Assembly (NCBI GenBank): GCA_001942185.1
Contig: MKJV01000080.1
Location: 1 to 64,000 of the forward strand
Length of the DNA stretch: 64,000 nt
DNA from: Pseudonocardia sp. CNS-004
Lineage (GTDB): Bacteria; Actinomycetota; Actinomycetes; Mycobacteriales; Pseudonocardiaceae
Reading direction: 5' to 3'
Part shown: positions 12,465-38,545 of the stretch, in pieces
How positions within the stretch are numbered: the stretch's first letter is position 1
Layout: each line of letters starts with the position of its first letter
Notes under the pieces: generated by a model
Told to the model about the DNA's origin: nothing
What the model saw: only the letters and a program-made list of their open reading frames with translations
Database searches by the model: none
Made by a program: the position numbers and the translations under genes

Positions 12465-12480
12465 GTCATGGCTCGTGGTG

Positions 12481-14895: not shown

Positions 14896-14899
14896 CGCG

Positions 14900-15456: not shown

Positions 15457-15469
15457 CCAGGAATGAGGG

Positions 15470-15497
15470 GTGGGGTGTTCCACGTGGAACACCCCAC
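15470..15497. terminator. 28-bp perfect palindrome between convergent genes
   Basis: A perfect palindrome centred at 15483/15484 with core GTTCCACGTGGAAC and G/C-rich arms. It lies between two convergent genes, so a bidirectional terminator is the simplest reading. Its core differs from the parS consensus GTTTCACGTGAAAC by one symmetric pair of changes. Confidence 0.55.
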
Positions 15498-15499
15498 TG

Positions 15500-15823
15500 T
15501 CACCTCGGGGTGATCTCCCCCATCTTCGACCAGCCGTCGCCGGGGACGTCCTGGAGGCTGATGATGTCCGGGGTGGTGGCCACGACGTCGGGGGCCCACT
15601 CGACGAACTCCTTGAAGTGGTCGGCGCCGACGTGCGCTGCCGCCGCGCCGTCCTGGAACGCCTCCACCACCACGAACTGGTTCGGGTCGGAGACGCTGCG
15701 GCTCCACTCGAAGAAGATGTTGCCCGGCTCGGCGCGGGTGGCCTCGGTGAAGCCCGAGACCCGGTCGAGCCACTGGTCGGCGTGCTCGGGCTTGATCGTG
15801 AACTTGACGACGATGAAGATCAT
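15500..15823 (-). CDS. antibiotic-biosynthesis-monooxygenase-fold protein (YgiN-like)
   Basis: A small ferredoxin-like ABM-domain protein of 107 residues. It begins MIFIVVKFTIKPEHADQWLD and has the typical centre EPGNIFFEWSRSVSDPNQFVVVEAFQDGAA and an HVGADHFKEFV helix. Family members are cofactor-free monooxygenases or quinol monooxygenases; others have no known activity. It lies 13 bases after glgX in the same direction and is probably cotranscribed with it. Substrate unknown. Confidence 0.85.
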   Translation of the reverse strand: MIFIVVKFTIKPEHADQWLDRVSGFTEATRAEPGNIFFEWSRSVSDPNQFVVVEAFQDGAAAAHVGADHFKEFVEWAPDVVATTPDIISLQDVPGDGWSKMGEITPR

Positions 15824-15836
15824 GGAGGGCCTCCGG

Positions 15837-17954: not shown

Positions 17955-18076
17955 GAGTCGGCTCAGACCGCCGCCTCGACCGGCTCGGTGTGCCGCGCGA
18001 CGGCCGGGGGAACTGCGATGCCGAGCCTCATGGAACCGAACGTAGCGGCGAGTGTCGGAGCCCGCCACGGTGATCG

Positions 18077-18086
18077 TGGTATACCA
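18077..18086. promoter_or_regulatory. GntR operator TGGTATACCA (copy 1)
   Basis: A perfect 10-bp palindrome six bases before the GTG of the GntR gene. The identical sequence recurs at 19517-19526. It fits the general GntR-family operator pattern and suggests autoregulation. Confidence 0.6.
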
Positions 18087-18091
18087 AAGTC

Positions 18092-18784
18092 GTGACGCAA
18101 GATGCGGCGCCGACGCTGCCCCCACTGGGCCGGTCCACGACGCGATCCGACCTCGTGGCGGCGTCGGTCAAGGCGGCGATCCTCTCCGGCAGGCTGCAGC
18201 CGGACGAGCTGCTCGTCGAACGCCGGATCGCCGACCAGCTCGGGGTGTCGAAGACGCCCGTGCGCGAGGCCCTGATCGCGCTCACGTCCTCCGGTCTGCT
18301 GACCCCCACCCGCAACCGCGGCGTCGCCGTGCGCAGGCTGCGCCCGGAGGACGTGCAGCAGGTGTACGAGATGCGGCTGCTGGTGGAACCGTGGGCGGTC
18401 GGTCAGGCCGCCACGACGGGCACGTTCGACGTGGCCGTGGCGCGCGACGCTCTGGAGGACGCCGCCCGTTTCGTCGAGGCCGACGACCACGCCGGGCTGA
18501 GCCTCACCAACCGGCGTTTCCACCGCACCATCTACTCCACGTGCCCGAACGAGCTCGTGGTCCGCTCGCTCGACGACCTGCAGGACCTCACGGCGCTCGG
18601 CACCGTGAGCCTGCTCTGGGAGCGGTGGCCGACCTGGCGGGCGGAGCTCGAGGAGCACCGCGAGATCTTCGCCGCGGTGCAGCAGGGGCGCGCCGAGGAC
18701 GCCACGGAGCTGATGCACGGGCACATCCAGCGCTCGATCACCCGGCTCCGGGCGCAGCAGGCCCGCGCCGCGGCGGGCGGCTGA
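18092..18784 (+). CDS. GntR-family (FCD subfamily) transcriptional regulator
   Basis: A 230-residue regulator. Its N-terminal winged helix-turn-helix (residues about 15-85) carries the hallmark LVERRIADQLGVSKTPVREALIAL. The all-helical FCD effector domain follows, with likely metal/ligand residues in NRRFHRTIY and the C-terminal MHGHIQ. FCD regulators usually sense organic acids and repress nearby catabolic genes. Its GTG lies close behind the TGGTATACCA palindrome, and a second copy lies in the divergent promoter of the RraA/transporter genes. It ends one base before the convergent RraA-like stop. Confidence 0.92.
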   Translation: MTQDAAPTLPPLGRSTTRSDLVAASVKAAILSGRLQPDELLVERRIADQLGVSKTPVREALIALTSSGLLTPTRNRGVAVRRLRPEDVQQVYEMRLLVEPWAVGQAATTGTFDVAVARDALEDAARFVEADDHAGLSLTNRRFHRTIYSTCPNELVVRSLDDLQDLTALGTVSLLWERWPTWRAELEEHREIFAAVQQGRAEDATELMHGHIQRSITRLRAQQARAAAGG

Positions 18785-19491
18785 TCATCCCCGGCTGCGG
18801 TACTCCGCGATCGTGGCCTCGTCGGGAGGATAGGTACCGCGCAGCGGGGCACCCGACTCGATCTTCTCGAGCACGAAGGCCTCCAGCCGCTCCTGCTCGA
18901 CGGCCGCCGCGGCCACCTCGGCCGCGAGGTGGCGCGGCACGCAGACCACGCCGTCGCGGTCGCCGACCATGATGTCGCCCGGGTAGACCGGCACCTCGGC
19001 GCAGCCGATCGGCACGTTCAGGTCCACGGCGTGGTGCTGGGCGAGGTTCGTGGTGGCGGCCGCGCCCGCGGCGAACGTCGGCATCGCCAGCTCGGCGAAT
19101 CCCGCCCTGTCACGCACGGACCCGTCGCTCACGAACCCGGCAACGCCGCGGCGCAGCAGCCGCGTGGCGAGGATGTGGCCCAGCGACGCCGCGCGCGTCT
19201 GCGCCGGGCGTCGACGACGAGCACCGCGCCGGGCGGCACCGACTCGACGGCCTTGCGCTGCGGGTGGTCGTAGTCCTGGAAGACCGACAACGTGTCCACG
19301 TCCTCGCGCGACGGGATGCAGCGCAGTGTGAACGCCTCCCCGACCATCCGGGTCTGCGCGGGGTTCAGCGGCCGGAGGCCGTGCAGGAACGTGTTGCGCA
19401 GCCCGCGCGCCATCAGCTGGGTGGTCACGGTCGCGGTGCTGACGGAGCGCAGCGCCGCGAGCGTGCCCGCGTCCACGGTGTCGGTCGTCAT
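18785..19491 (-). CDS. RraA-family aldolase/decarboxylase-like protein, frameshifted
   Basis: RraA-fold protein. Relatives are 4-hydroxy-4-methyl-2-oxoglutarate aldolase / oxaloacetate decarboxylase or sugar-acid lyases. The first part (TVDAGTLAALRSVSTATVTTQLMARGL, PGAVLVVDARG-type stretch) is in one frame. The second (LGHILATRLLRRGVAGFVSDGSVRD, VYPGDIMVGDRDGVVCVPRHLA) is in another, joined by one missing base near 19195-19215. The corrected protein is 235 residues. The GDRDGV motif is the family's metal-binding region. Divergent from the transporter gene, with the shared operator between them. Confidence 0.82.
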
Positions 19492-19516
19492 GACCCTCCT
19501 CATCGAGCTGGACGGA

Positions 19517-19526
19517 TGGTATACCA
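19517..19526. promoter_or_regulatory. GntR operator TGGTATACCA (copy 2)
   Basis: The same 10-bp palindrome as at 18077-18086. It is located in the 75-bp gap between the divergent RraA-like gene and the transporter operon. One bound repressor could control both promoters. Confidence 0.62.
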
Positions 19527-19566
19527 GTACACCAACGTCCGTTCACTCGACGACGAGGAGAACACG

Positions 19567-20856
19567 ATGACCGAGCGGCCGGGAACGGCGGCCCCTCCTG
19601 CGGACAACTTCCTGGCCTACCTGCGGGCGTTCGGCCCCGGGATCGTCGTGGCGCTGAGCTGGGTGGGCACCGGCGATCTGATCGACAACTCGGTGGCGGG
19701 CGGCAACTACGGCTACGCACTGCTGTGGGTGCTGCCGCTCTCGCTGGTGTTCCGGTTCGTGTTCGTGAACGCGCTGGGCAAGTACCCGCTCTACAACGTG
19801 CAGCAGGACCCGAGCATCGTGCGCGGCATCGCCAGGACGCACCCGGCCTTCGGCTGGCTGATGCTCGTCTCGTTCGTGATCTACACCCACATCCTGCTGG
19901 CGTTCACGCTCAGCGGGGTCGGCGTCTCGCTGGAAGGGCTGTTCGGCGGCCTGCCCACGTTCTGGTGGGCCGTGATCGGCGCGATCTCGGTCTTCGCCGT
20001 GACGCTCAAGGGCGCCTACCGGCTCATCGAGCGGATCTTCAAGGTGGTCCTCGCGCTCATGGTGCTGACGTTCGTGGTCGGCATCGCGCTCGTCGGCATC
20101 AACTGGGCCGAGCTGGTCAAGGGTTTCGCGTTCGAGCTACCGCCCCAGCAGGGCCTCTTCGACTCCGGCCTCGTCGCATCGAGCCTCGTGCTCGCGACGC
20201 TCGGAATGGCCAACCTGTTCTACCCGGAGTTCCTGCGTGAGAAGGGCTGGACCACCCCCGCACACCGCAAGGTGCAGCAGTACGACCTGCTCTTCGGCAC
20301 GGTCGTCGTGCTGTTCCTCGGCGTGGCGGTGTGGGCGATCGGCGCCGAGGTGCTGTTCGGGCGGCAGGGCGTGAGCGAGGCGGGCGACATCGCCGGTGCG
20401 CTGGGCACCGCGGTGGGCCCGATGGGGCCCTACATCTTCTACCTCGGCCTGCTCGGCGCCGCGTGGACGACCGTGGCCGGCTCGCTGTTCGCACTGGCCA
20501 AGATGGTGGTCGAGGCGCTGCACGTGGTTCGTCCGGCGCGTGCCGAGCGCTACTCGGGCACCCGCACCGCAGACCCCGCCTACCGCTGGGTCATCGTGTG
20601 GGGGCTGCTCGCCGTCGTCTGGTCGCTGCCGCACGCGCCCGGTTTCGTGGCGCTCGTCGTGGTGTCCCACGTGCTGACGTCGCCGTTCCTGCTCCTGATC
20701 GTGCTCGCCCTCATCGTGATGCTCAACCGGACGGACATCATGGGGCGGTACACGAACAGCTGGAAGGAGAACGCCGGTCTCGGCCTCGTCGCGGTGTTCG
20801 TCGCGATCGCGGCGGTGCAGGGTATCGGCAAGGCGGTGGGTGAGCTGTTCTCGTGA
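19567..20856 (+). CDS. Nramp-related membrane transporter
   Basis: A polytopic protein of 429 residues with about 11 hydrophobic helices and an overall Nramp/LeuT-fold layout. The first helix reads FGPGIVVALSWVGTGDLIDNSVAGG where canonical Nramp metal transporters have a DPGN motif. The helix-6 region (LVLATLGMANLFYPEF) lacks the usual MPH. The metal-site residues are thus not conserved. Together with its place at the head of a catabolic operon, this suggests uptake of an organic substrate. GAGGAG precedes the ATG at 19567. The next gene starts 16 bases later. Confidence 0.78.
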   Translation: MTERPGTAAPPADNFLAYLRAFGPGIVVALSWVGTGDLIDNSVAGGNYGYALLWVLPLSLVFRFVFVNALGKYPLYNVQQDPSIVRGIARTHPAFGWLMLVSFVIYTHILLAFTLSGVGVSLEGLFGGLPTFWWAVIGAISVFAVTLKGAYRLIERIFKVVLALMVLTFVVGIALVGINWAELVKGFAFELPPQQGLFDSGLVASSLVLATLGMANLFYPEFLREKGWTTPAHRKVQQYDLLFGTVVVLFLGVAVWAIGAEVLFGRQGVSEAGDIAGALGTAVGPMGPYIFYLGLLGAAWTTVAGSLFALAKMVVEALHVVRPARAERYSGTRTADPAYRWVIVWGLLAVVWSLPHAPGFVALVVVSHVLTSPFLLLIVLALIVMLNRTDIMGRYTNSWKENAGLGLVAVFVAIAAVQGIGKAVGELFS

Positions 20857-20872
20857 TCGAAGGGAAGTGCGC

Positions 20873-22474
20873 GTGACGACCGTCGCCGCAGCAGTTGCCG
20901 ATCTGCTCGCCGAAGCGGGTGCCCGCCGGTGCTACACGGTGCCCGGGGAGTCGTTCCTCAGCCTGATCGACCAGGTGGACCGGCACCCCGCTCTCCGGTT
21001 GGTGTCAGTGCGACACGAATCGGGTGCGGCCTTCATGGCCGATGCGGACGCCCGGCTCACCGGCGTTCCCGCGGTGGCCATGGCGAGCCGCGGGCCGGGC
21101 TCGTCGAACCTCGCGATCGGGGTGCACACCGCACACCAGGACTCGACGCCCATGATCGTGCTGCTCGGGCAGGTCGACTCCCAGCTGCGCGGTCGAGAGG
21201 CCTTCCAGGAGGTCGACCTCACCGCGTTCTACGGCCCGATCACCAAGTGGGCCGTCACGGCCGAGCGCGCCGAGGACGTTCCCGGCCTGGTGGCGGAGGG
21301 TTGGCGGATCGCGACCTCCGGCCGCCCCGGCCCGGTCGCGATCGCGATCCCGAGTGACTTCGTCGACGTCGAGCTGTCCGCTGGCCGTCGTGCCGCAACC
21401 CCCGGCGGCGGAGCCGGCACCCGTCGACGTCGAGGAGCTCGCCGGGCGCCTGCTGTCCGCCCAGCGGCCGGTCGCCATCGCCGGAGAAGGCGCCCGCCCG
21501 GCCCGCGACCTGCTCGTGGCCGTGGCCGAGCACTTCGGCGTGGGCGTCTGCACGTCGTTCCGCCGCCAGGACGCCTTCCCGGTGGACCACCCGAACTTCC
21601 TGGGCCACCTCGCGCTCGCCACCCCCGACGCACCGTGGATGCCGTGGCCGGTGCCGACCTGCTGCTCGTCGTCGGCACGCGGCTCGACGAGGTCACGACG
21701 CAGCGCTACCGGCTGCCGGCGCGGGGCAGTGAGGTCGTCCCGATCGGCCGCTACGGCACCGGCGGGATCGACGCCGATCCGGCCGACGTGCTGGCGGCAC
21801 TCGCACGCCGGGGCGGCCCGGCCCGGCCGGTGGACTGGACGTCGGTGCACGCGGCCGTCGACGCCTGGTCGACGCCTCCGACCGGGAACGCCGACGGCGG
21901 GGTGCACCCGGCCGCGGTGATCGCCGCTCTGCACCGGCACCTCCCCCACGACGGGATCGTCACCAACGACGCAGGCAACTTCGCCGCGTTCCTGCACCGC
22001 TACTGGCGCTTCCCGGCCACCACCACCCAACTGGCTCCCGTGAACGGCGCGATGGGGTACGCCGTGCCGTCGGCGGTCGCGGCCGCGGTGGCCGCCCCGG
22101 AGCGGACGGCCGTGGCGGTCGTCGGCGACGGCGGCGTCCTCATGACCGGCCAGGAGATCGAGACGGCGGTCCGGCTCGGCGCGCCGCTGGTCGTCCTCGT
22201 GCTGCAGAACGGCATGTACGGGACGATCGCGATGCACCAGGCCCGTGACCTGGGCCGTACCTCGGGCGTCGACATCGGCTCGGTCGACCTCGTGCGCTGG
22301 GCCGAAGGGCTGGGCGCCGCTGCGTACGGCGTCACGGAGGCCGGGCAGCTGGACGACGCGCTGCACCGCGCCGTCACCGGAAGGCGGCCCGCGGTGGTGG
22401 CGGTCCGCACCGACCCGGACATCATCACGCCGACGGCGACGCTCGCCGGCCTGCTCGAGCGGGTGCCGGTGTGA
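20873..22474 (+). CDS. thiamine-diphosphate-dependent enzyme (acetolactate synthase / decarboxylase superfamily), frameshifted
   Basis: ThDP enzyme, 533 residues after correction. The PYR domain has the activating Glu in SVRHESGAAFMADA. The PP domain has the ThDP motif VVGDGGVLMTGQE running to LVLQNGMYGT. The middle domain is out of frame: an extra T near 21377 (expected VELPLAVVP) and a missing base near 21630-21640 (expected VDAVAGADLLLVVGTRLDEV). Likely a 2-keto-acid decarboxylase or carboligase of the operon's pathway. GTG start after AAGGGAAG. The stop overlaps the dehydratase start (GTGA at 22471-22474). Confidence 0.85.
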   Translation: MTTVAAAVADLLAEAGARRCYTVPGESFLSLIDQVDRHPALRLVSVRHESGAAFMADADARLTGVPAVAMASRGPGSSNLAIGVHTAHQDSTPMIVLLGQVDSQLRGREAFQEVDLTAFYGPITKWAVTAERAEDVPGLVAEGWRIATSGRPGPVAIAIPSDFVDVELSAGRRAATPGGGAGTRRRRGARRAPAVRPAAGRHRRRRRPPGPRPARGRGRALRRGRLHVVPPPGRLPGGPPELPGPPRARHPRRTVDAVAGADLLLVVGTRLDEVTTQRYRLPARGSEVVPIGRYGTGGIDADPADVLAALARRGGPARPVDWTSVHAAVDAWSTPPTGNADGGVHPAAVIAALHRHLPHDGIVTNDAGNFAAFLHRYWRFPATTTQLAPVNGAMGYAVPSAVAAAVAAPERTAVAVVGDGGVLMTGQEIETAVRLGAPLVVLVLQNGMYGTIAMHQARDLGRTSGVDIGSVDLVRWAEGLGAAAYGVTEAGQLDDALHRAVTGRRPAVVAVRTDPDIITPTATLAGLLERVPV

Positions 22475-24186
22475 GGAGGGCGCCGGAGGAGCTGCGCAGC
22501 CACCGCTGGTTCGGAGCAGGCGATCTGCGCTCGTTCGGCCACCGGTCGCGGGCGCAGCAGATGGGGTACGACGCCGAGGAGTACTCCGGCCGGCCGGTGA
22601 TCGGCATCCTCAACACGTGGAGCGACCTCAACCCGTGCCACACGCATTTCCGCGAGCGGGCCGAGGAGGTCAAGCGGGGCGTGTGGCAGTCGGGCGGGTT
22701 CCCGGTGGAGCTACCGGCGATGTCGCTGTCGGAGCCGTTCCAGAAGCCGACCACGATGCTCTACCGCAACATGCTCGCGATGGAGGCCGAGGAGCTGCTG
22801 CGCTCCCACCCCGTCGACGCGCCGTGCTGATGGGCGGATGCGACAAGACCACACCGGGCCTGGTGATGGGGGCGACGAGCATGGGGCTGCCGTTCGTCTT
22901 CCTGCCGGCGGGCCCGATGCTGCCCGGTCGCTGGGGCACCGAGGTGCTCGGCAGCGGGTCGGACACGTGGAAGTACTGGGACCGCAAGCGCACCGGCGCG
23001 ATCACCGACGAGGACTGGCGCGCCATCGAGGGCGGCATCGCCCGTTCCCCCGGCCACTGCATGACGATGGGTACGGCCAGCACCATGACGGCAGCGGCGG
23101 AGGCGCTCGGGCTGACCCTGCCCGGCGCCTCGTCGGTGCCCGCGGCGTTCTCCGGCCACGCCCGGATGGCGGTGGCGACCGGACGCCGGATCGTCGACAT
23201 GGTGTGGGAGGACCTGCGTCCCGGCCAGGTGCTCACGGCTGCCGCCTTCACGAACGCCGTCACGGTGGTCATGGCGCTGGGCGGGTCGACCAACGCGGTC
23301 ATCCACCTGATCGCGATGGCCGGACGCGCCGGCGTCGAACTGTCGCTGGACGACTTCGACGCCGTGTCCCGGCGCACGCCCGTGCTCGCGAACATCCGCC
23401 CGTCCGGCGCGTACCTGATGGCCGACTTCCACGACGCGGGCGGCCTCCGGGCCCTGATGTCCGAGCTGGGCGACCTACTCGACCTCGACGCCCGCACCGT
23501 CGCCGGCACGAGCCTCGCGGAGAACATCACGGACGCGTGGTGCACGACCCCGACGTCATCCGCGGGCGCGACCGCGCGCTCGCCCCCGAGGGCGCGCTCG
23601 CCGTGCTGCGCGGGAGCCTCGCCCCCGACGGCTGCGTGCTCAAGACGTCCGCCGCGAGCCCGCACCTGCTGCAGCACTCCGGTCGCGCGGTGGTGTTCGA
23701 CGGCTACGACGACCTCGCCGCCCGCATCGATGCCGACGACCTCGACGTCGACGCGGACTCCGTGCTGGTGCTGCGCGGAGCGGGCCCGATCGGCGGCCCG
23801 GGCATGCCCGAATGGGGCCAGCTGCCGATCCCGGAGAAGCTGTTGCGCGCCGGGGTGAGCGACATGGTCCGCATCTCCGACGCCCGGATGAGCGGCACGA
23901 GCTACGGCACCTGCGTGCTGCACGTCGCTCCGGAGTCGGCGGCCGGTGGCCCGCTCGCCCTCGTCCGGGACGGCGACCCCATCCGGCTGGACGTGCCCGG
24001 CCGCCGGCTGGACCTGCTCGTACCGGACGGAGAGCTGGCGGCGCGCCACGAGGCCGGGCGCCGCCCGCCCCGCAGCAGGCCCGCGGCTACGGCGCGATGT
24101 TCGCCCGGCACGTCACGCAGGCCGACCAGGGCTGCGACTTCGACTTCCTCGGCGGGTCCGGGGCGCCGGAGCCTGCGATCCACTGA
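22471..24186 (+). CDS. IlvD/Edd-family dehydratase (sugar-acid type), frameshifted
   Basis: Iron-sulfur dehydratase that removes water from a dihydroxy acid to give a 2-keto-3-deoxy acid. The motif GILNTWSDLNPCHTHF and the cysteines of NPCH, GGCDKTTPG and GHCMTMGTAST fit the [Fe-S]-binding pattern of sugar-acid dehydratases such as L-arabinonate dehydratase. The DARMSGTSYG segment is also present. Single missing bases near 22820, 23540 and 24070 split it into four frames. Corrected length 572 is standard. Overlaps the ThDP gene by four bases and ends the catabolic operon. Confidence 0.86.
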
Positions 24187-24230
24187 CGTGCCCGTGCGGG
24201 TGACCGGGCGGGTGGAGGAAGACTGGCCGG

Positions 24231-24998
24231 GTGCCGGAGTGGATTCCCGTGTCGACGGGTGAGTCACGCGCCGACGTGTTCCGCCGCGACGACGGGACGC
24301 TCATCGCGAAGCGCGTGGGCCCGTCCGGCGTCGCCGACCTGCTCGCCGAGTGCCGGCGCATCGAGTGGCTGACCGGTACCGGCATCCCTGGTCCGTCCGT
24401 CGTGGACTGGTCGACGTCCGATGACGGCGCTCGCCTGGTGATGACGGCGGTCCCCGGCGTCGCGGCGGGTGAGCTGGACTCGGCCACGTTGCTGCGGGCC
24501 TGGCCGGCCCTCGTCGGAGTGCTGCGCCTGCTGCACGAGCTCCCGACGGCGGACTGCCCGTTCGAGCGGACACTGGCGACGATGTTCCGGATCGCGGAGG
24601 ACGTGGCGCGGCGCGACGCCGTCATCCCCGAGTTCCTCGCCGAGGACCAGCAGGGCAGGCCCCACGCCGAGCTGCTGGCGGACCTGCGTGCCCAGCTCGA
24701 CGAGCGCCTCGACCAGGAGCGCGGGGACCTCGTCGTCTGTCACGGCGACGCCTGCCTGCCGAACTTCATGGTCGACCCCGGCACCCTGGCCTGCACCGGC
24801 CTGATCGACCTCGGCCGGTTGGGTATCGCGGACCGGCACGCCGACCTCGCCCTCCTGCGGGCGAGCGCGACCGAGAGCTGGGCGGGCGACGACGGAACGC
24901 ACGCCGAGCGGTTGTTGTCCGAGCGGTACGGCGATGACCGGATCGACCCGGGCAGGCTGCGGTTCTACCACCACCTCGACCCGCTGACCTGGTCCTAG
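24231..24998 (+). CDS. APH(3'')-like aminoglycoside phosphotransferase
   Basis: Kinase-fold enzyme of 255 residues, strikingly similar in layout to streptomycin 3''-phosphotransferases. Features include FRRDDGTLIAKRV, the ALVITAIPGV-like LVMTAVPGVAAGEL, the catalytic loop VVCHGDACLPNFMVDP and GLIDLGRLGIADRHADLALL, ending LDPLTWS. The Asp of CHGD and the Asp of IDLG are the expected catalytic and metal residues. GTG start with GGAGGA 10 bases before. It lies 44 bases after the dehydratase but is functionally unrelated. Probably intrinsic streptomycin resistance; activity is inferred. Confidence 0.83.
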   Translation: MPEWIPVSTGESRADVFRRDDGTLIAKRVGPSGVADLLAECRRIEWLTGTGIPGPSVVDWSTSDDGARLVMTAVPGVAAGELDSATLLRAWPALVGVLRLLHELPTADCPFERTLATMFRIAEDVARRDAVIPEFLAEDQQGRPHAELLADLRAQLDERLDQERGDLVVCHGDACLPNFMVDPGTLACTGLIDLGRLGIADRHADLALLRASATESWAGDDGTHAERLLSERYGDDRIDPGRLRFYHHLDPLTWS

Positions 24999-25026
24999 AC
25001 CCCCCCGGCAGGGGCGGAGCGCGGGC

Positions 25027-25593
25027 TCACTCCCGGCCCGGTGTGGTGACGGGGGCGAGCGCGGCCAGGAAGTCGTCGAAGGCCTGGTCGGCTCGCGCCA
25101 CATCACCCGTGGCCTCGATGTCCATGATGAGGCCGCGGACGACGGCGAGCACCAGGGTGGCGAGTTCGGGACGGCCGATGCTCCGCATGCCGTCCTCGAA
25201 CGGCTGCAGCCAGTCGGTGGTGGCCTCGTGACGAAATCCCGGCCACAGCCGTTGCCCGGCATCCTCGCGGAGCTTGCCGAACATGCTGAGGTACGGGCGG
25301 CCGGCCGGGCCGGTCATGACCCGCCACGCCCGTCGCAGCGTGCTCAGGTAGGGCTCGTCCGGCCGTGGGGACACCAGTTCGCCGAAGAACTCGCGCTGGC
25401 GCCGCCGCGCCCGTCCCAGGGTTTCCCGCAGCAACGCGTCCCGGGTGCCGAAGTGGTAGATCAGCATCCGGGTCGAGGTGCCGGATGCCGCGGCGAACGG
25501 CTCGAGGCGGTCGGGAAGCCCGTGCGCGAGCGCGTGGTCGGCGCAGGCCTCGAGTATCCGGTCGCGGATCTCGGGCTGCTTGTGCCGTCCCAC
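25027..25593 (-). CDS. TetR-family transcriptional regulator
   Basis: A 188-residue repressor with an N-terminal helix-turn-helix. The usual recognition segment is RMLIYHFGTRDALLRETLGRA. The all-helical C-terminal domain gives no ligand clue. Divergent from the alpha/beta hydrolase at 25672, with an inverted repeat in the 78-bp gap, so it probably controls that gene and itself. Intact. Confidence 0.9.
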   Translation of the reverse strand: MGRHKQPEIRDRILEACADHALAHGLPDRLEPFAAASGTSTRMLIYHFGTRDALLRETLGRARRRQREFFGELVSPRPDEPYLSTLRRAWRVMTGPAGRPYLSMFGKLREDAGQRLWPGFRHEATTDWLQPFEDGMRSIGRPELATLVLAVVRGLIMDIEATGDVARADQAFDDFLAALAPVTTPGRE

Positions 25594-25607
25594 CGCGACA
25601 CTTTTTC

Positions 25608-25625
25608 ACGTAACTGGCGGTACGT
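25608..25625. promoter_or_regulatory. candidate TetR operator
   Basis: ACGTA-N8-TACGT inverted repeat in the divergent gap between the tetR gene and the hydrolase gene. The placement fits; binding is inferred. Confidence 0.4.
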
Positions 25626-25671
25626 CTACCGTCGACCCGAAAGGTCGCGACAGCAGATCATGGAGGAAAAG

Positions 25672-26369
25672 ATGCGTGTTGCCTTCGTGCACGGAGCGTG
25701 CGTTCGGGACGGATCGTGGTGGTGGCACCGTGCCGCCGCGGCCCTGGAGGAGCGCGGCATCGGCAGCGTCGCCCCGGCGCTGCCGAGCTGCGGCGAGGGC
25801 GACCGGCCTGCCGGACCGCGGGGCCCCGGGCTCGCCGAGGACGTCGCCTCGGTACGCGCTGTCCTGACCGAGGACGACGAGCCGACGGTGGTCGTGGCGC
25901 ACAGCTACGGCGGCATCGTCGCCGCGGAAGCGGCGGTGGGCGTCGAGACGGTGCAACACCTGGTGTTCGTGTCGAGCTACCTGCCCGAGGCCGGCGAGTC
26001 GCTGTCGACCTTCGGCGACGGCACGCCACCGCCGTTCCTGGACTTCGACCCGGACGGCGGCACGTTCGGCGCCCGCCCCGAACTGTTCGCCGAGACGTTC
26101 GCCCAGGACTGCTCACCGGACATCACCCACGCCGCGGCGACCCGCCTGGTCCGGCAGACCCTGGCCGTGACCCAGCAGCCCGTGAGGGCAGCGGCGTGGC
26201 ACGACCTACCCACGACGTACGTGCTCTGCACGAAGGACCGGGGCACCCCGGCGGCGGCGCAGCGCAGGTTCTCCCGCCGCGCGGACACACCATCGAGGTG
26301 GAAGCGGGTCACCACCCGTTCCTGTCGCAGCCGCAGAGCATCGCCGACATCATCACGAGCCTGTCGTGA
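25672..26369 (+). CDS. small alpha/beta hydrolase, frameshifted near the end
   Basis: Single-domain hydrolase of 232 residues (esterase/hydroxynitrile-lyase-like size). It has FVHGACVRDGSWWW at the start, the nucleophile elbow VVAHSYGGIVAAE, and the catalytic His in the C-terminal EAGHHPFLSQP. That His lies in the next frame because one base is missing near 26275. GGAGG at 25662-25666 selects the ATG at 25672; an ATG at 25660 is too close. Divergent from, and probably repressed by, the TetR regulator. Confidence 0.82.
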
Positions 26370-26430
26370 CCCGGTTCCCGGCGTCGGCCGGCGCAACGAG
26401 CATGATCGGCGGCTTCCGCCGGTCGGATCG

Positions 26431-26473
26431 GTGGAGATAAGGGGAATCGAACCCCTAACCCCTGCCTTGCAAA
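26431..26473 (-). repeat. tRNA-Ala 3'-half fragment, candidate att site
   Basis: This segment copies the 3' half of tRNA-Ala (anticodon loop through acceptor) at 29514-29556. From 26440 to 26473 it matches 33 of 34 bases, with 23 identical in a row. The repeats are 3083 bases apart and bracket a tyrosine integrase remnant beside the intact tRNA. That is the classic layout of an element integrated in a tRNA gene, this copy being the displaced att end. Confidence 0.7.
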
Positions 26474-26562
26474 TGTGGATCAGCCGCCCCGGACCAGCGG
26501 CATGCCGAGGTCGCAAGCGGTCCGTGCTCAGACGAGGCTGATCCGCACCGCGTGCCGTCAAC

Positions 26563-27330
26563 TCACGGCCGCGACCGCCGCGTCCACGGGCCGAGCTTGT
26601 CCGGGTTGCGGACCGCCCAGATGCGCGTGATCCGCTCGCCCGCGAGCTCGAACGCCACGACCGTCACGGTGACGCCGTCCTGGACGGCCACCAGGCCGGG
26701 GCGGCCGTTGACCGTGCGTTCCAGGATCGTCTGGCCGGCCAGCAGGCCCGCGGTGTCGACCATGTAGCGCACGATCCGCTCGGCGCCCTCGATCGGGCGG
26801 CGCATGGCCCGGGCCCGGCCGCCGCCGTCGGAGATCGCCGTGGCGCGGGGGTCGAGGAGGCCAGCTGCCGGCAGGCCGCCGGCGTGCGGCCGACGATGTC
26901 GGCCACGTCGGCGAACGGGTAGCGGAACACGTCGTGCAGGACGAACGCGACGCGCTCGGCCGGGGTCATGGACTCGAGCACGACGAGGAAGGCCATGCTG
27001 ATCGACTCGTCGAGCGTGATCCGGTCGGCCGGGTCGGCCGGGCGCCGCCGGACCACTCGACGCGGTCGGGCACCGGCCCGGGGATCCAGTCGCCCACGTA
27101 GGCCTCCCGCCGCGCCCGCGCCGAGCCGAGCAGGTCGAGGCGGATCCGGCCGGCGACCGTGGTCAGCCAGGCGGCGGGGGACGCGATCGCGTCGCGCTGT
27201 TGGCGGACTGGGCGTACCAGCGCGCGTAGGTCTCCTGCACGACGTCCTCGGCGTCGGCGAGGGAGCCGAGGAGCCGGCAGGCGAGGTTGGTCAGCCGCCG
27301 CTCGTCCGTGATCGCCTCGGTGTCCGTCAT
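26563..27330 (-). pseudogene. ECF41-type sigma factor (SigJ-like), internally deleted
   Basis: Recognisable pieces: TDERRLTNLACRLLGSLADAEDVVQETYARW (region 2), SPAAWLTTVAGRIRLDLL, then DESISMAFLVVLESMTPAERVAFVLHDVFRYPFADVADIVGRTPAACRQLA (region 4). A SnoaL-like tail follows (LLDPRATAISDGGG, GAERIVRYMVDTAGLLAGQ). Missing bases near 27188 and 27045 break the frame. In addition about 50 codons normally between CRQLA and the SnoaL domain are absent, near 26862. ECF41 sigmas pair with CMD/oxidoreductase/epimerase genes, as here. The deletion suggests a real pseudogene. Confidence 0.7.
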
Positions 27331-27407
27331 GCCACCGCCGCTCCCCCCGGTCGCCTCCACCCTTGTGCATTCGACGAGACAGCGCACCGGTTCGTGAGGG
27401 GGCGCGC

Positions 27408-27433
27408 CTCACACTCCCCTGCGCTGCGTCGTC
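27408..27433 (+). promoter_or_regulatory. candidate ECF41 promoter
   Basis: CTCACA (27408-27413), 16 bases, then CGTC (27430-27433) resembles the ECF41 consensus TGTCACA-N16-CGTC. It lies 43 bases before the CMD-like gene and in the divergent gap with the sigma gene. Confidence 0.4.
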
Positions 27434-27475
27434 GGACCGGTGGAACGGAACCCGGATCCCGAAGGGACGACCCCC

Positions 27476-27982
27476 ATGACCACGACCACGACGACCGACC
27501 AGGAAGGCCTCCGGTCGCGGCTGCCCGAGCCCACCGCGTTCGGCCCCGATCTCCTCACGATCGCCGGCGGCATGAACAAGGCCATCCGCAACGGGGCGAT
27601 CCCGCAGACGACCATCGGCCTGGTGCAGCTGCGGGCCGGGCAGATCGTCGGCAGCAGCTACCACACGATCCACAAGACCGGGAACCTCCGCAAGGCGGGC
27701 GAGACCGAGGAGCGCATCACCGCGGTGGCGTCGTGGCGGGACGCGCCCTACTACACCGACGCCGAACGGGTCGCCCTCGAGCTCGTGGAGGCCGTCCTCA
27801 CCCCGAACCCGGGCGGGGAACGCGTCCCCGACGAGCTGTTCGCCCGGGCGTCCGCCCACTACGACGAGACGGCGCTCTGGACGCTCACCCTGGTGATCGG
27901 CCAGATCTGCTTCTTCGTGCCGGTCGCCCTGATCGCCAAGCCGATCCCGGGCACGGCCCCCGGCAAGAACTACAGCAAGTAG
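27476..27982 (+). CDS. carboxymuconolactone decarboxylase (AhpD-like) family protein lacking active-site cysteines
   Basis: A 168-residue CMD-fold protein, the usual partner of ECF41 sigma factors. The family helix normally carrying C-x-x-C-x-x-x-H reads RAGQIVGSSYHTIHKTGNL, so both redox cysteines are replaced. The rest follows family pattern (EERITAVASWRDAPYYTDAERVALELVEAVL, AHYDETALWTLTLVIGQICFF). GAAGGGA eight bases before ATG 27476. An intact frame inside the decayed region. Peroxidatic activity is unlikely; role unknown. Confidence 0.8.
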   Translation: MTTTTTTDQEGLRSRLPEPTAFGPDLLTIAGGMNKAIRNGAIPQTTIGLVQLRAGQIVGSSYHTIHKTGNLRKAGETEERITAVASWRDAPYYTDAERVALELVEAVLTPNPGGERVPDELFARASAHYDETALWTLTLVIGQICFFVPVALIAKPIPGTAPGKNYSK

Positions 27983-28588
27983 CCCGCGCGGGGCAGCCTC
28001 CCCTCGGCCGCCGACCAGGCGCGCTCGTCGCCGCGGGGCTCGTAGCGGGTGGCGCGCAGGAGGGTGCGCAGCGCGGCGAGGTCGCCGTGCACCGCGCCGA
28101 GCGCCCTCGCCTGCACCAGCAGGTTGCCCAACGCCGTCGCCTCCACCGGGCCGGCGACGACCGGCAGGCCGCAGGCGTCCGCGGTGAGCTGGCACAGCAG
28201 CGCGTTGCGGGCCCCGCCGCCGACGACGTGCACGACGTCCACCTCGCGCCCGGACAGCTCGCAGGCCTGGCGGATCACCCTGCGGTGGGCGAGCGCCAGG
28301 CTCTCCAGCACGCACCGGACGGTCGCGGCGCGCCCGGCGGGCGGTTCCTGCGCGAGCCGCCGGCACGCGGCGGCGATGCGCTCCGGCATGCCGTCCGGGG
28401 CGAGGAACTCGGGGTCACCCGCGTCGACGACCGCCGCGAACGCCGGCGCCCGCCCCGCCTCGTCGAGCAGGGCGAGCAGGTCGCGTCCGGCCAGGAGCGC
28501 AGGCACTCCTGCAGCAGCCACAGGCCCATGACGTTGCGCAGGTAGCGCACCGTGCCGTCGACGCCCAGCTCGTTGGAGAACTCGCGAC
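27970..28588 (-). pseudogene. rhamnulokinase C-terminal fragment
   Basis: FGGY-kinase C-terminal half. It reads EFSNELGVDGTVRYLRNVMGLWLLQECLRSW, then LLALLDEAGRAPAF, VVHVVGGGARNALLCQLTADACGLPVVAGPVEATALGN and a proper C terminus. The N-terminal half is missing: at about 28580-28588 the sequence turns directly into integrase coding on the other strand. One base is missing near 28475. No start codon or upstream sequence remains, so this is a fragment left by a deletion. It overlaps the CMD gene stop by 13 bases. Confidence 0.75.
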
Positions 28589-29449
28589 GACTACGAAGGG
28601 ATCTTCCGCAACCACATCGAACCGCACCTCGGGGCGATGTCCGTCGGCGAGATCAGCCCGGCCACCGTACGAGGGTGGCGCACTGACCTGCTCGACAGCG
28701 GCATATCCCGCAACCGCGCCGCGAAGGTGTACCGCCTGCTCCGGGCAATCATGAACACGGCCAAGGACGACGAGCTGATCCGCAAGAACCCGTGCCGGAT
28801 CAAGGGCGCCGACAAGGAGACGGAGACCAGTCGCCCGGTCGCCAGCGTGCCTCAGGTATACGCGTTGGCGGACGCCGCGCCGCGCCGATTCCGGGTGCTC
28901 GTGCTGCTCGGCGCGTTCACGAGCCTGCGCTGGGGTGAGCTCGTGAACCTGCGGCGGTGCGACGTCGACACCACGGCTGGAGTCGTGTAGGTGACCAGGA
29001 CGCTGAGCGAGCGCGATGACGGCAACCTCGACCCGGCGAGCACCCCGAAGTCCCCCGCCAGCGTGCGGTCGGTGGCCGTCCCCGCGTTGGTCGCCGCGGA
29101 TCTTGCCGCGCATCTGGCGGAGTTCACCGCTCCTGCGCCGGACGCGTTCGCGTTCCTCGGCGAGCTGGGCGGCCGACTGCGCCGCAGCAACTTCCGGCGG
29201 GCTACTCACTGGCGCGAGATGGTGCGACAGGTCGGACTCCCTGTCGACTTCCACTTCCACGACCTGCGTCACACGGGGAACCAGCTCGCGGTCGAGGCCT
29301 GCGCCACGACCAAGGAACTCATGCGCCGGATGGGCCACAGCACCGTGCGTGCCGCGATGCGCTACCAGCACTCGACGGACCGCCGGGACCGCCAGATCGC
29401 AGCGGAGATGAGCCGCCGAGCGAAGGCAGAGAAGGACAGGAGCACGTGA
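28580..29449 (+). pseudogene. tyrosine-recombinase integrase, 5'-truncated with in-frame TAG
   Basis: Phage/ICE-type integrase. The core-binding domain starts abruptly at about TRDDYEGIFRNHIEPHLG, and the N-terminal arm domain is absent. The catalytic domain has Arg in TSLRWGELVNL, HDLRHTG and MGHSTVRAAMRYQH with the nucleophile Tyr, so catalytic residues survive. An in-frame TAG at 28988-28990 separates two blocks read in the same frame, and a GTG follows at once. A strong terminator lies downstream, then tRNA-Ala. Truncated together with the rhamnulokinase at one junction. Non-functional unless suppressed. Confidence 0.82.
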
Positions 29450-29469
29450 CCGTGTGGCACGTACGTGGC

Positions 29470-29505
29470 ACGGCCCCCGGCGGAGTGATGTTGTCCGGGG
29501 GCCGT
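29470..29505 (+). terminator. terminator after integrase
   Basis: ACGGCCCCCGG (29470-29480) pairs perfectly with CCGGGGGCCGT (29495-29505), followed by TTTGC. It separates the integrase remnant from the tRNA-Ala 3' end. Confidence 0.7.
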
Positions 29506-29511
29506 TTGCAC

Positions 29512-29587
29512 TGGTGGAGACGAGGGGAATCGAACCCCTAACCCCCGCCTTGCAAAGGCGGTGCTCTGCCAATTGAGCTACGTCCCT
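29512..29587 (-). tRNA. tRNA-Ala (TGC)
   Basis: Cloverleaf on the minus strand. The D-arm region is TAGCTCAATTGGCAGAGC, the anticodon stem CCGCC/GGCGG encloses the TGC anticodon, and the T-arm is AGGGGTTCGATTCCCCT. CCA is encoded at the 3' end (29512-29514). The acceptor 5' strand reads AGGGACG where GGGGACG would pair better, probably one more missing G. Host site of the adjacent integrated element. Confidence 0.92.
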
Positions 29588-29636
29588 GGCTGAGCGGGGA
29601 CGTTACCCGCTCAGCAGCGGGCGGTGTTGCCCGGGT

Positions 29637-29747
29637 TCAGTTGTTGGTGGCCTCGTGCCAGAGGTCGGTCTCGCGGGAGGCGCGCACCTTGGAGAAGATG
29701 AAGGCGCCCGCGGCGAGGGCAACAGCAACAGCGATGAGCTTCTTCAC
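29637..29747 (-). CDS. DLW-39 family small protein
   Basis: A 36-residue peptide from the GTG at 29747: MKKLIAVAVALAAG start, one hydrophobic helix, then basic RASRE and the family signature DLWHEATNN at the end. The DLW motif and position between tRNA-Ala and tRNA-Ile beside gyrA match the actinobacterial DLW-39 family. AGGA ten bases upstream supports this start; a GTG at 29756 would give exactly 39 residues. Function unknown, probably membrane-attached. Confidence 0.8.
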   Translation of the reverse strand: MKKLIAVAVALAAGAFIFSKVRASRETDLWHEATNN

Positions 29748-29801
29748 GAGGATCACGTCCTAACCTGTCCCGAAGGATGTCCGGAGTGGAGCTCAGGGGA
29801 G

Positions 29802-29875
29802 TGGGCCCAGCTGGATTTGAACCAGCGACCTCGTCGTTATCAGCGACGCGCTCTAACCAACTGAGCTATGGGCCC
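29802..29875 (-). tRNA. tRNA-Ile (GAT)
   Basis: A minus-strand 74-base cloverleaf. The acceptor GGGCCCA pairs with TGGGCCC. The D-arm is TAGCTCAGTTGGTTAGAGC, the anticodon GAT sits in CTGATAAC, and the T-arm is CTGGTTCAAATCCAG. No encoded CCA. Its place downstream of gyrA, with tRNA-Ala next, is conserved in actinobacteria. Confidence 0.94.
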
Positions 29876-29937
29876 TTGCGACGGGGACGAGGCTACCGCA
29901 GCGCCCCCGGTCGCCTTCAACCGGATACCCCCTGGCG

Positions 29938-30935
29938 TCAGTCCCGCTCGGAGAGGGTGAGCTCGATGCCGCCCACCAGGTCGGCGGACACGTTGTAGAC
30001 GAACGCGCCCACCGTGACGGCCACGGCGAAGAGCAGGCTGTTGATCGCCCCGATCACGGCGGCGAAGCCGAACACGCGGCCTGCGCTGATGAGCGGCTTC
30101 CGGTGGGGGTGTCGCCCGACACCAGGTCGGCGTAGGTGCCGTTGAGCCGGTCCCACACCCCCATGCCGTCGAGGGCGCCGTAGAGCACCCCGACCGCCAC
30201 CAGCCAGATGAAGAACAGCACGACGGCCAGCACGAGGCCCAGCTTCAGGGCCGACCAGGGGTCGATCCGCTTGAGCTGGAGCGCAGCCTGCCTGGGCGGC
30301 CGACTGCGCACCGCCCGCACGCTGGACCAGCTGTCGGCGTTCGGCTTCGACCCGGTGCGCGACTCGTCGGGGTACGAGGGCGGCTCCAGGAACGCGGTGG
30401 GGCCCTCGTCGAGGAACCCGCCGCCCTGCGGTGGCGCGTGCGTGGTGTCGGCCGGGGCCTCCGCCGCCGCACCGCCGCCGTCGGACATCCGGTTCCACGG
30501 CGGCGGCGCCGCCGCGTCCGGGCCGGGGGCCGGCATCGGGCCGGGCGCAGGCTCGGGGTCGGGTGGCCGAGGCGTGGGCGATGGCGCCACGGGTGTGGCC
30601 GCCGCGGGCGGGGCGGACGGGGCCTGTGCCTGGGTCGTCGAAGTCTCCGCCGCCCCGGTGCCGGGCGGTGCCGGCGCCGGAGCGGGGGTCGGCGACGGAC
30701 GCTGCGGAAGCGGGATGTATGCCGTGGGTGCGTCCACTCCGGTCGGTGCGACCGGGCGGTCGGCGAGGGTCACCGCCTCGGCCTGCGCCGACCCGTTCGC
30801 GCCTGCGGCGCTCCCGTTCTCGACGGGAGCCGCAGGCTCGGCCCGGCTCGCCTGCGGTGGGATCGCCGCCTGCTCGCCGGTGGCCACACGGCCTTGGCCG
30901 TCGGGCTCGTCCGGGGTGCTCGTCGTGTCGTTCAC
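29938..30935 (-). CDS. DUF3566 membrane protein, frameshifted
   Basis: A protein of 332 residues after correction. The long Pro/Ala/Gly-rich cytoplasmic N terminus (about 200 residues) is followed by the DUF3566 core: QLKRIDPWSALKLGLVLAVVLFFIWLVAVGVLYGALDGMGVWDRLN, then SAGRVFGFAAVIGAINSLLFAVAVTVGAFVYNVSADLVGGIELTL. The two helices are in different frames because one base is missing near 30105. The gene directly follows gyrA (orthologue of mycobacterial Rv0007). In mycobacteria this family is linked to division or envelope functions. Role here inferred only from synteny. Confidence 0.85.
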
Positions 30936-30984
30936 GAGGTGAGGTGTCTCCTCGGGGCCTTGTGGGGTGGGACGGCTCGCGAGC

Positions 30985-33481
<2,497 letters not shown>

Positions 33482-33523
33482 GGTCCTTCTCTGCTCGTGC
33501 TGTTCCTGATCGCGGCGCGCGGA

Positions 33524-35560
<2,037 letters not shown>

Positions 35561-35767
35561 TCAGAGCCTCTCGACCGGGCGATGGGGAGCGCCCGGAACA
35601 CTCCTCCATCATACCGGGGCACCCTGACTGGAACGCGGCTAGGACACCCCCAGAATCGTCACAGACAGCCGATCAGAAGCCGAGACGGGTCGTTTCGGCC
35701 GCGACCGGCTCTGAAACGCGCTACGAGCCCGTCATGCCGCCCTGATTCGCGCGTGCCGCGACCGGCG

Positions 35768-36418
35768 TCATCCGTACGTGTCCCGGGGCCCCCTGCCGCG
35801 GACGTGCCGCGGGCCGCGCCGCCAGCTCGGCCCGGACGGCCCGACCACCCGGATCCGGCGCACGACGTCCTTCCCCACCGCGCCGGCCAGCCGGGCGAGC
35901 AGCTGCCGTTGGAGCTGGCGCAGCTGCGTGGCCCACGCGGTGGACTCGGCCTGCAGCACGAGCTCGCCGTCGCGCAACGACAGCGGTGTGCAGTGGTCGG
36001 AGATCTCGGTGCCGACCAGGTGCGGCCAGCGTCCGAGGACGGTGGCGTCGGTGAGCCTCGGCGACCAGCCGCGGTCCAGCGCGACCCGCGACACGAGCCG
36101 TCCGAACGGCTGCGGGTCGCGCTCGTCCGGCCCGGAGCTCGACCACCGGCGGCGGCGGCCACGGGGCCGGGTGGGCTTGCGGCCCTCCATCTCGGCGGAG
36201 CGCTGGGCCGCTCGTTCCGCATTGGCCTCCCGGGCCGCCCGCAGCGCCTCGCGGGCGAGGTCGGCACCGCGATTGCGACCAGCGGTCACCTCCTGTTCAT
36301 CCCCAAGGCTGGGGACAGGTGGTCCCGAATGGGGCACGATGGGCGGTTCTCCCGGCACGACGGGCGGTTGTTTTTGCTCGTCATCACCAGTGCGGCGCGA
36401 GTTATCCACAGTATCCAC
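35768..36418 (-). CDS. DciA-like DUF721 protein
   Basis: DUF721-family protein between recF and gyrB (orthologue of mycobacterial Rv0004). DciA proteins interact with and help load the DnaB replicative helicase. The N terminus is low complexity and acidic/Pro-rich. The DUF721 domain (about residues 105-190) has LVSRVALDRGWSPRLTDATVLGRWPHLVGTEISDHCTPLSLRDGELVLQAESTAWATQLRQLQRQLL. 216 residues from the GTG at 36418; the GTG at 36409 has a better-spaced AAAGG. Two DnaA-box-like sites overlap the start. Intact. Confidence 0.85.
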   Translation of the reverse strand: MDTVDNSRRTGDDEQKQPPVVPGEPPIVPHSGPPVPSLGDEQEVTAGRNRGADLAREALRAAREANAERAAQRSAEMEGRKPTRPRGRRRRWSSSGPDERDPQPFGRLVSRVALDRGWSPRLTDATVLGRWPHLVGTEISDHCTPLSLRDGELVLQAESTAWATQLRQLQRQLLARLAGAVGKDVVRRIRVVGPSGPSWRRGPRHVRGRGPRDTYG

Positions 36419-36419
36419 A
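36402..36419. promoter_or_regulatory. tandem DnaA-box-like sites at the dciA start
   Basis: TTATCCACA (36402-36410), a perfect E. coli-type DnaA box, is followed by GTATCCACA (36411-36419), one mismatch. They overlap the first codons of the DUF721 gene, between recF and gyrB, about 4 kb from oriC. Confidence 0.45.
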
Positions 36420-36442
36420 CCTTTGTCCCCAGGTGGGTGAGA

Positions 36443-37576
36443 TCACAGCCGACCTCCTGACGTGGTCTCTTGCGCAAGCCGCTCGACGTGCCCTCCGTTC
36501 ACCGCGAACCGGGCACCGTCAAGGCCGTCGGGTACGTCCTCGGCCACCGCAGCGGTGATCAACACCTGTTCGGCGCGGCGGGCGACGTCGGCCAGCGCAC
36601 TGCGCCGCCGGGAGTCGAGCTCCGCGAACACGTCGTCCAGCACGAGGACCGGCTCGACGTCGTCGGCGCACAGCAGCCGGTACGACGCGAGCCGCAGCGC
36701 GAGCGCCAGCGCCCAGGACTCCCCGTGGCTCGCGTAGCCCTTCGCCGGACCCTCGCCGAGACTCAGCTCCAGGTCGTCGCGGTGCGGGCCCACGAGGCAC
36801 ACACCGCGCTCCACCTCCTGCCGCCGCAGGCGCGCCATCGCGTCCACGAGCAGCGGCTCCAGCTCGCCCGCCGAGGCCGGCAGGTCGCCGTCGAGGCTGC
36901 AGCGGTAGCCGACCGCGATCGGGTCCGAGGTCGGCGCGACCTCCGCGAACGCCGCCACCGCGAGCGGGGCGATGGCGGTGACCAGCTCCAGCCTCCCCGC
37001 CAGCAGCGCGGCGCCGTGCCGGGCGAGGTGGCCGTCCCACACGTCCAGCGTGCGCAGGTCACCCCCGCCGCGCGCCGTCTTGAGCAGCGCGGAGCGCTGG
37101 CGCAGCACCCGGTCGTAGTCGGAGCGGACGGCGGCGTAGCGCGGGAACCGCGACACCAGCAGGTCGTCGAGGAACCGGCGGCGTTCACCGGGATCCCCGC
37201 GCACCAGCGCGAGGTCCTCGGGGGCGAACAGGACGGTGCGCAGGATCCCCAGCACGTCCCGTGGCTTCGCCACCGGTGCGCGGTTCACCCGCGCCCGGTT
37301 GGCCCGGCCCGCCGTGATCTCCAGCTCCACGGCCAGCTCCCGGCCCTGGTGCACGACCAGCCCGCGCACGAGCGCACGGTCGGCGCCGCGCCGGATCAGC
37401 GGCGCATCCGTGGCGACGCGGTGCGAACCGAGCGTGGCCAGGTAGCCCGCCGCCTCCACGAGGTTGGTCTTGCCCACCCCGTTCGGCCCCACGAGCACCG
37501 TGACGCCGGGCTGCAGGTCGAGCTCGGCGCTCTCCCAGGAGCGGAAGTCGGTGACGGCGAGGCGGCGCAGGTGCAC
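36443..37576 (-). CDS. recF: DNA replication and repair protein RecF
   Basis: ABC/SMC-type ATPase that loads RecA at gaps together with RecOR. 377 residues, intact. It begins [21 protein letters not shown], with Walker [11 protein letters not shown], signature-type [15 protein letters not shown] and Walker [16 protein letters not shown] start. It follows gnd by three bases, and its stop is 24 bases before the DUF721 GTG: the dnaN-gnd-recF-dciA-gyrBA run is one compact minus-strand series. Confidence 0.95.
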
Positions 37577-37579
37577 GGC

Positions 37580-38510
37580 CTAATTCTGGGCGGGGCCCGG
37601 GCCGGCGTGCTCACCCGGCGTGCCCGCGGGTCCGGCGGCGCGCACCGCGTGGCCGCCGAACTGCTGGCGCAGCGCCGCGACCGCGCGCATCGCGGGCGAG
37701 GAGTCCTGCCGGGAGGCGAACCGCGCGAACAGCGCCGCGGAGATCACCGGCAGCGGCACCGCGTGCTTGATCGCCTCTTCGATCGTCCAGCGGCCCTCTC
37801 CGGAGTCCTCGACGTAGTCGTCGAGCTTCGCCAGGCCGGGGTCCTGCTCCAACGCGTCGACGAGCAGGTCGAGCAGCCACGAACGCACCACCGTGCCGCG
37901 CGACCACGCCTGCAGCACACCGGGTACGTCGGTGATCAGCTCGGCCGCCGAGAGCAGCTCGAACCCCTCGGCGTAGGCCTGCATCAGCCCGTACTCGATG
38001 CCGTTGTGGACCATCTTCGAGAAGTGGCCCGCGCCACCGGGCCCGCGTGCACGAAGCCTTCCTCGCGCGGTCCTCCGGGCGCAGGGCGTCGAAGATCGGC
38101 ATGGCGCGTTCGACGTGCTCCGCGGAGCCGCCCGCCATCAGCCCGTAGCCGTTGGCCTTGCCCCAGATGCCGCCCGAGACACCGACGTCGAGGTATCCGA
38201 TCCCCTTCTCGTCGAGCAGGGTGGCGTTGGGGCCGTCGTCGGTGTAGCGCGAGTTGCCGCCGTCGATCACGAGGTCGCCGGGCTCCAGCACGTCGCCGAG
38301 CACCCGCACGGTGCTGCGGGTCGGCTCCCCGGACGGGACCATCACCCACACGACGCGGGGCGCGCTGAGTGCGCTCGCCAGCGCTGCCGGCGACTCGACG
38401 TCGCTCACCTCGGGACGGGGGTCGTAGCCGACCACCTCGTGGCCCGCTGCGCGCAGCCGGTCGCGCATGTTGCCGCCCATCCGGCCCAGCCCGATGAGTC
38501 CCAGTTGCAC
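37580..38510 (-). CDS. gnd: 6-phosphogluconate dehydrogenase (decarboxylating, short form), frameshifted
   Basis: NAD(P)-dependent enzyme of the pentose-phosphate pathway, the roughly 300-residue type found between dnaN and recF in actinobacteria. N-terminal Rossmann GLIGLGRMGGNM, then VIDGGNSRYTDD, DVGVSGGIWGKANGYGLMAGG and KMVHNGIEYGLMQAYAEGFELL. Two missing bases near 38065 and 38035 (expected EEGFVHAGPVGAGHFSKMVHNG) split it. Corrected length 310. RecF starts three bases downstream. Confidence 0.9.
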
Positions 38511-38545
38511 GTTCTCTCCCCCGGTGTCTGGCGCTCGCCCGGCCC

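Follow-up and report, generated by a model that had tools for sequence, protein, structure and literature searches.

The 3' part of a tRNA-Ala(TGC) gene occurs twice within a short interval of the Pseudonocardia sp. CNS-004 chromosome, next to a broken tyrosine integrase gene, which raises the question of what entered the chromosome at this point and how much of it is left. The window analyzed here comprises 64,000 nucleotides (contig MKJV01000080.1, positions 1 to 64,000), and comparisons were made within a set of 62 Pseudonocardia genomes that includes its own (G-numbers denote genomes). An earlier note, made from the window sequence alone, had reported a tRNA-Ala 3' copy at 26431-26473. This copy was confirmed and starts one base earlier, with 41 of the 44 bases of 26430-26473 identical to 29513-29556 (mismatches at 26438, 26439 and 26463), including the 33/34 stretch described in the note. 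The intact tRNA-Ala that the note had placed at the other end of the interval was recovered at the same position by the tRNA gene call (Table 1), on the minus strand like the tRNA-Ile gene at 29801-29875. The two copies lie in a direct repeat pair (26418-26478 and 29501-29561), the longest reported for positions 25800-30600, and its spacing of 3,083 bases agrees with the 3.08 kb given in the note. A 43-mer of the tRNA 3' part, with up to three mismatches allowed, was found twice in the 9.2 Mb genome and the reversed 43-mer control never; hence, the repeat goes beyond chance. The locus had also been framed as a gyrA-tRNA-Ala-ppiA interval; ppiA lies at 12487-12978, 16.5 kb from the tRNA-Ala, and only 3.1 kb of this distance is bounded by the repeats. 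The stretch from this peptidyl-prolyl isomerase gene to the tRNA-Ala (12979-29511, 16.5 kb) differs strongly among relatives, its portion 18075-24994 being shared with G042.

Table 1. Features of the repeat-bounded interval and its surroundings in the window.
Feature	Positions	Strand	Basis
Two ORFs without family match, outside the repeats (25027-25593, minus; 25698-26369, plus)	24996..26429		
Outer (chromosome-side) flank of the tRNA-Ala fragment	26413..26430	.	18 bases tested, the last being the first repeat base
Displaced copy of the tRNA-Ala 3' part; second attachment site	26430..26473	-	Repeat and pattern search, alignment
Inner element end adjoining the fragment	26474..26503	.	First 18 bases compared with relatives
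sigJ-type sigma factor gene, over several ORFs in different frames	26563..27387	-	ORFs, family match
Carboxymuconolactone decarboxylase-like (CMD-like) gene, 180 codons open	27440..27982	+	ORF, family match
C-terminal part (third) of rhamnulokinase (FGGY_C)	27973..28580	-	Family match; similarity ends at 28580
Tyrosine integrase remnant, N-terminus missing, in-frame TAG, C-terminal domain retained	28581..29449	+	ORFs, domain and HMM matches
Hairpin (29472-29480 / 29495-29503) and element arm, integrase to tRNA-Ala	29472..29513	+	
Intact tRNA-Ala(TGC), its 3' half being one attachment site	29512..29587	-	tRNA gene call

It is very probable that a small integrative element, most likely a pSAM2-like actinomycete integrative and conjugative element (AICE), entered the 3' half of the tRNA-Ala(TGC) gene and then lost most of its genes, leaving the present remnant. 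Entry would have occurred by integrase-driven recombination, the attP core of the element rebuilding the 3' part of the tRNA and the original 3' part being displaced to what would thereby become the far attachment site. Genes for replication and transfer would have been lost later, along with the integrase N-terminus, and at least one illegitimate join, at 28580, would have left sigJ-CMD-rhamnulokinase DNA inside. Both sites, element-side flanks that recur in relatives, and the C-terminus of an integrase beside the tRNA are observed directly. The integrase remnant had been seen in the earlier note and adjoins one attachment site, its C-terminus pointing toward the tRNA-Ala. It consists of two halves of one frame (28581-28990 and 28991-29449) with a TAG codon at 28988-28990 between them, and these halves match positions 100-244 and 247-395 of an HMM of 409 positions built from 51 integrase frames. 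Positions 1-99 of the HMM are unmatched by the window integrase, whose N-terminus is lost.

The similarity to rhamnulokinase stops at 28580 (some alignments extend 9 bases past it) and the similarity to integrase begins there, which indicates that both genes were truncated at one join; no clear short homology was seen at it. The "decaying genes" of the earlier note are weakly supported, notably for the frame breaks of sigJ; the two truncations at the join are independent of the single-base deletions in the assembly. Twelve single-base deletions, common to the comparisons with G012, G042 and G017, were found in window 30697-39799, some of them in gyrA and gyrB, and gyrA is split over three frames. 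These shared deletions are likely sequencing or assembly errors, and broken frames anywhere in the window are therefore unreliable. Base composition was considered as a marker of the interval and rejected (69-74% GC versus a window mean of 72%).

The DNA between the fragment and the join may not be cargo of the element at all, but a chromosomal segment brought into the old element at 28580 by a later rearrangement or by a possible misassembly. This is a serious possibility, though one that we consider somewhat less than even. Rhamnulokinase and integrase are cut at the same base; genes for both rhamnulokinase and sigJ occur widely across the genus (up to 84% identity), a second rhamnulokinase being present in G000 C113 (81%). 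On the other hand, the 3' end of sigJ (26563) sits only 89 bases inside the inner edge of the fragment. Moreover, when 74 tRNA-Ala or fragment loci from the 62 genomes were compared with window 26474-28580, the sigma factor (G035, 56 bases; G053, 127 bases) and the CMD-like gene (G053, 87 bases) had matches within about 3 kb of tRNA-Ala, suggesting that such genes may arrive at this tRNA. Apart from the window itself, all matches in this comparison were short, and none of the 74 loci matched the rhamnulokinase. At L158 (G053, 11951-12760), the sigma-factor and CMD-like matches are adjacent to each other, at a distance of about 2.3 kb from tRNA-Ala and in the opposite orientation.

As to the parent of the remnant, the earlier note had left the choice between an ICE and a prophage, and the integrase relationships make the former, specifically the AICE type, the more likely. 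In a tree of 55 rows inferred with a quick method, the integrases of the window, G061, G026 and G021 form one set (SH-aLRT 99), all located at tRNA-Ala, with G021 filling 17% of the columns and lying on a long branch; that of G004, also at tRNA-Ala, falls near the set on a very long branch and was left out of it. The note had recommended a search for related intact integrases that use tRNA-Ala; none of the elements carrying integrases of this set was seen to be complete. The set neighbors a tRNA-Arg-side integrase, within a larger set dominated by tRNA-Gly(TCC) integrases, and the tRNA-Ala label needs 6 changes on the tree, so that target and kinship are only partly linked. The integrases of G003 and G051 are placed elsewhere, together with the L107 integrase, which stands beside tRNA-Ala in another genus. 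When contigs were scanned with the C-terminal half of the integrase, 86 pattern matches resulted, none of which was confirmed as a relative. A family scan with the integrase alignment gave at least 589 stretches, at least 487 of them confirmed, of which the best 80 were kept; tRNA genes were searched at 34 of these best 80 loci, and at 28 of the 34 the integrase match is followed downstream, within about 1.3 kb, by a tRNA-Gly(TCC or CCC), whereas six have no tRNA nearby or another tRNA.

More distant relatives of the window integrase stand beside RepSA (G043, G051) and FtsK/SpoIIIE (G043); the integrase is at tRNA-Gly in G043 and at a displaced tRNA-Ala fragment in G051. The G061 integrase, the nearest to that of the window, is 49% identical to the G051 and 52-53% identical to the G043 protein, and the window integrase was assigned to the AICE lineage through these relatives at about 50% identity to its G061 counterpart. 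Given these neighbors, an AICE-type conjugative element is the most likely parent, rather than a prophage. No RepSA-type replication or FtsK/SpoIIIE transfer gene was detected in the seven ORFs scanned in the interval, so that AICE parentage rests on integrase kinship, and for the same reason the remnant is filed as that of a tRNA-targeting integrative element, probably of AICE descent, rather than as an AICE itself. Scans of ORFs in G061 and G026 likewise gave no rep or tra gene. The integrase of G028, which also has RepSA and FtsK neighbors, was rejected as kin, being 26% identical to that of G061 and placed elsewhere in the tree; its neighbors were for this reason not used. At L055 (G043, 5441-18282), two near-identical integrase copies lie about 12 kb apart at tRNA-Gly(TCC) with RepSA and FtsK between them, as in a tandem AICE, and ARAGORN calls a "tRNA-???" at 16791-16874, perhaps an inner att copy.

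Phage tyrosine integrases also use tRNA 3' halves, and PHROG integrase families match both halves of the window integrase, as would be the case if the parent had been a prophage or a phage satellite. We regard this as improbable, given the association of related integrases with RepSA (G043, G051) and FtsK/SpoIIIE (G043) and the absence of any structural or lysis PHROG from the nine scanned ORFs (seven lie between the repeats), in which the only PHROG matches are to integrase families and to two families of unknown function. The remnant, whose own integrase is truncated, is not expected to move by itself; a different integrase active at this tRNA could in principle recombine its near-identical sites.

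The remnant is a further case of the insertion into tRNA genes, accretion and decay of AICEs, as these are presented in PMC3218068 and PMC9513070. The AICEs of the former resemble it in having a tyrosine integrase beside one att site, insertion into tRNA 3' ends (tandem copies are also described) and direct repeats, as well as in the RepSA and FtsK genes found beside the relatives of the window integrase; they differ from it in that the seven ORFs scanned here contain neither rep nor tra. Excision of one element, Faln1739, despite a stop codon in its int gene is also described in PMC3218068. PMC9513070 describes the decay of AICEs and their accretion at one tRNA-Arg in a Streptomyces population, where direct repeats enclose a conserved remnant. 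The tRNA-Ala site of Pseudonocardia is similar in harboring several element families at one tRNA and a remnant flanked by direct repeats, and different in the genus and in the tRNA, which is tRNA-Arg in the case described. Within the genus, the elements of G061 (P. xinjiangensis JCM 11839) and G026 (P. parietis DSM 45256) share with the window the tRNA-Ala, integrase set, att core, arms and orientation, and carry other cargo; the G061 integrase frame has 356 codons, compared to two halves of 152 in the window. A literature search returned no paper on AICEs at tRNA-Ala or on AICEs in Pseudonocardia, and none that combined this genus with integrative and conjugative elements, integrase and tRNA.

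The sequences flanking the two sites were compared with those of relatives using 18-base flanks and 5000 shuffles, the outer flank being scored against 60 flanks. The inner flank of the window fragment matches that of G061 at 16 of 18 positions, a value reached by 0/5000 shuffles, and those of G026 and G021 at 11/18 and 10/18. For the integrase-side flank (29496-29513), the match is 15/18 with G026 (0/5000 shuffles) and 12/18 with both G061 and G021, and it also resembles the fragment-outer flanks of G015 and G016 (14/18, 5/5000 shuffles). The outer flank of the fragment is most similar to the flank beside tRNA-Ala in G017 (14/18, 4/5000 shuffles), although this match is short; it matches the tRNA-Ala flank of G012 at 12/18 and the outer flanks of other fragments at 12/18 at most (53/5000 shuffles). 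The sharing of flanks with the related elements of G061, G026 and G021, together with the G017-like outer flank, supports the reading of the repeats as true attachment sites and the earlier note in its proposal of an integration at tRNA-Ala that was then mostly deleted. That the fragment goes back to an ancient duplication or to chance, unconnected with any integration, is extremely improbable given that the element-side flanks recur in relatives with integrase genes at tRNA-Ala and that the window integrase itself stands there; nothing but the bare repeat speaks for it.

The close relatives G017 and G042 have a single copy of the tRNA-Ala 3' part, and G042, where no integrase match was found in the 7.8 kb examined, is a candidate for the empty site that the note had suggested looking for. 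In G042, an APH gene (ending near window 24995) closes the stretch collinear with window 18075-24994 and is followed at about 660 bp by tRNA-Ala, an arrangement that fits an uninterrupted site. Missing from the gap in G042 are also the two ORFs that the window has at 24996-26429, on the outer side of the repeats; hence, not all of the extra window DNA belongs to the element. Neither ORF was found at the other tRNA-Ala loci of the genus, G042 included. The note had named as contrary evidence a relative without integrase carrying the same fragment and flanks, and none was seen: G015, G016 and G038 keep fragments without a detected integrase, but with flanks different from those of the window. 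G012 was considered as a further empty site and rejected, since a second 43-mer copy 10.4 kb away shows it to be occupied. The native flank was read by eye from G042, G035, G002 and G057 and from the outer side of the G012 fragment, and the "gctggtcag" flank of G012 may be an element arm rather than native flank. By eye, this motif is seen about a dozen bases outside the core beside tRNA-Ala copies (e.g. L057, L109, L120), and several fragments contain a similar motif about 36 bases inward; an integrase arm site or a portion of a terminator hairpin may be represented here.

The tRNA-Ala next to gyrA is a much-used entry site in Pseudonocardia, with displaced fragments in 22 of the 62 genomes. 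The fragment is on a different contig from the tRNA in seven (G019, G023, G028, G034, G037, G050, G058), G051 has two fragments, one of them on another contig than the tRNA, and in G045 the fragment alone was seen. The window thus adds one well-delimited scar, an ordinary leftover at a site that many relatives use, which helps the annotation of the origin-proximal interval and does not change ideas on how such elements work. Two orientations are found at the site. Class A integrases, which are read away from the tRNA-Ala with their start beside it, have frames of 435-531 codons in 10 genomes (G010, G012, G019, G023, G027, G029, G032, G034, G050, G051). Class B integrases are read towards the tRNA, as in the window, and comprise those of G061 (356 codons), G026 (217) and G021 (88); integrase pieces in the class B direction also occur in G003, G004, G028 and G030, with other or unsure kinship. 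In G051, the tRNA itself adjoins a class A integrase, and a displaced fragment about 40 kb away has a class B integrase with a 552-codon frame next to it, an arrangement best read as successive insertion. With moderate confidence, the window may also record a class A insertion preceding the class B one, because the outer flank of its fragment resembles the tRNA flanks of G017 (14/18) and G012 (12/18), and G012 has a class A element there. Searches of window 12001-29600 with class A integrases gave significant hits (E-values of 1e-6 to 7e-10) only at the known integrase. A wider scenario, which is conceivable but rather doubtful, is that the window's integrase set represents a branch of tRNA-Gly integrases that switched to tRNA-Ala(TGC) in Pseudonocardia, all copies seen in the 62 genomes being incomplete, and that another integrase family, in the opposite orientation, continues to insert at this tRNA. 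The window fragment, with an outer flank like that of the second family, would then record two successive insertions beside the origin.

Some individual loci show further peculiarities. The class A element of G012 (L110, 608-11052) spans 10.4 kb at the same tRNA-Ala, and its genes include a C5 DNA methylase and a restriction gene of the GmrSD type; the integrase frame continues into a GntR domain that is absent from eight other class A integrases scanned. In G061, an ARAGORN tRNA-Asp call (L042, 9196-9292) overlaps the displaced tRNA-Ala fragment, and the outer flank of this fragment looks like a class B arm, as though another element had formerly been present on that side.
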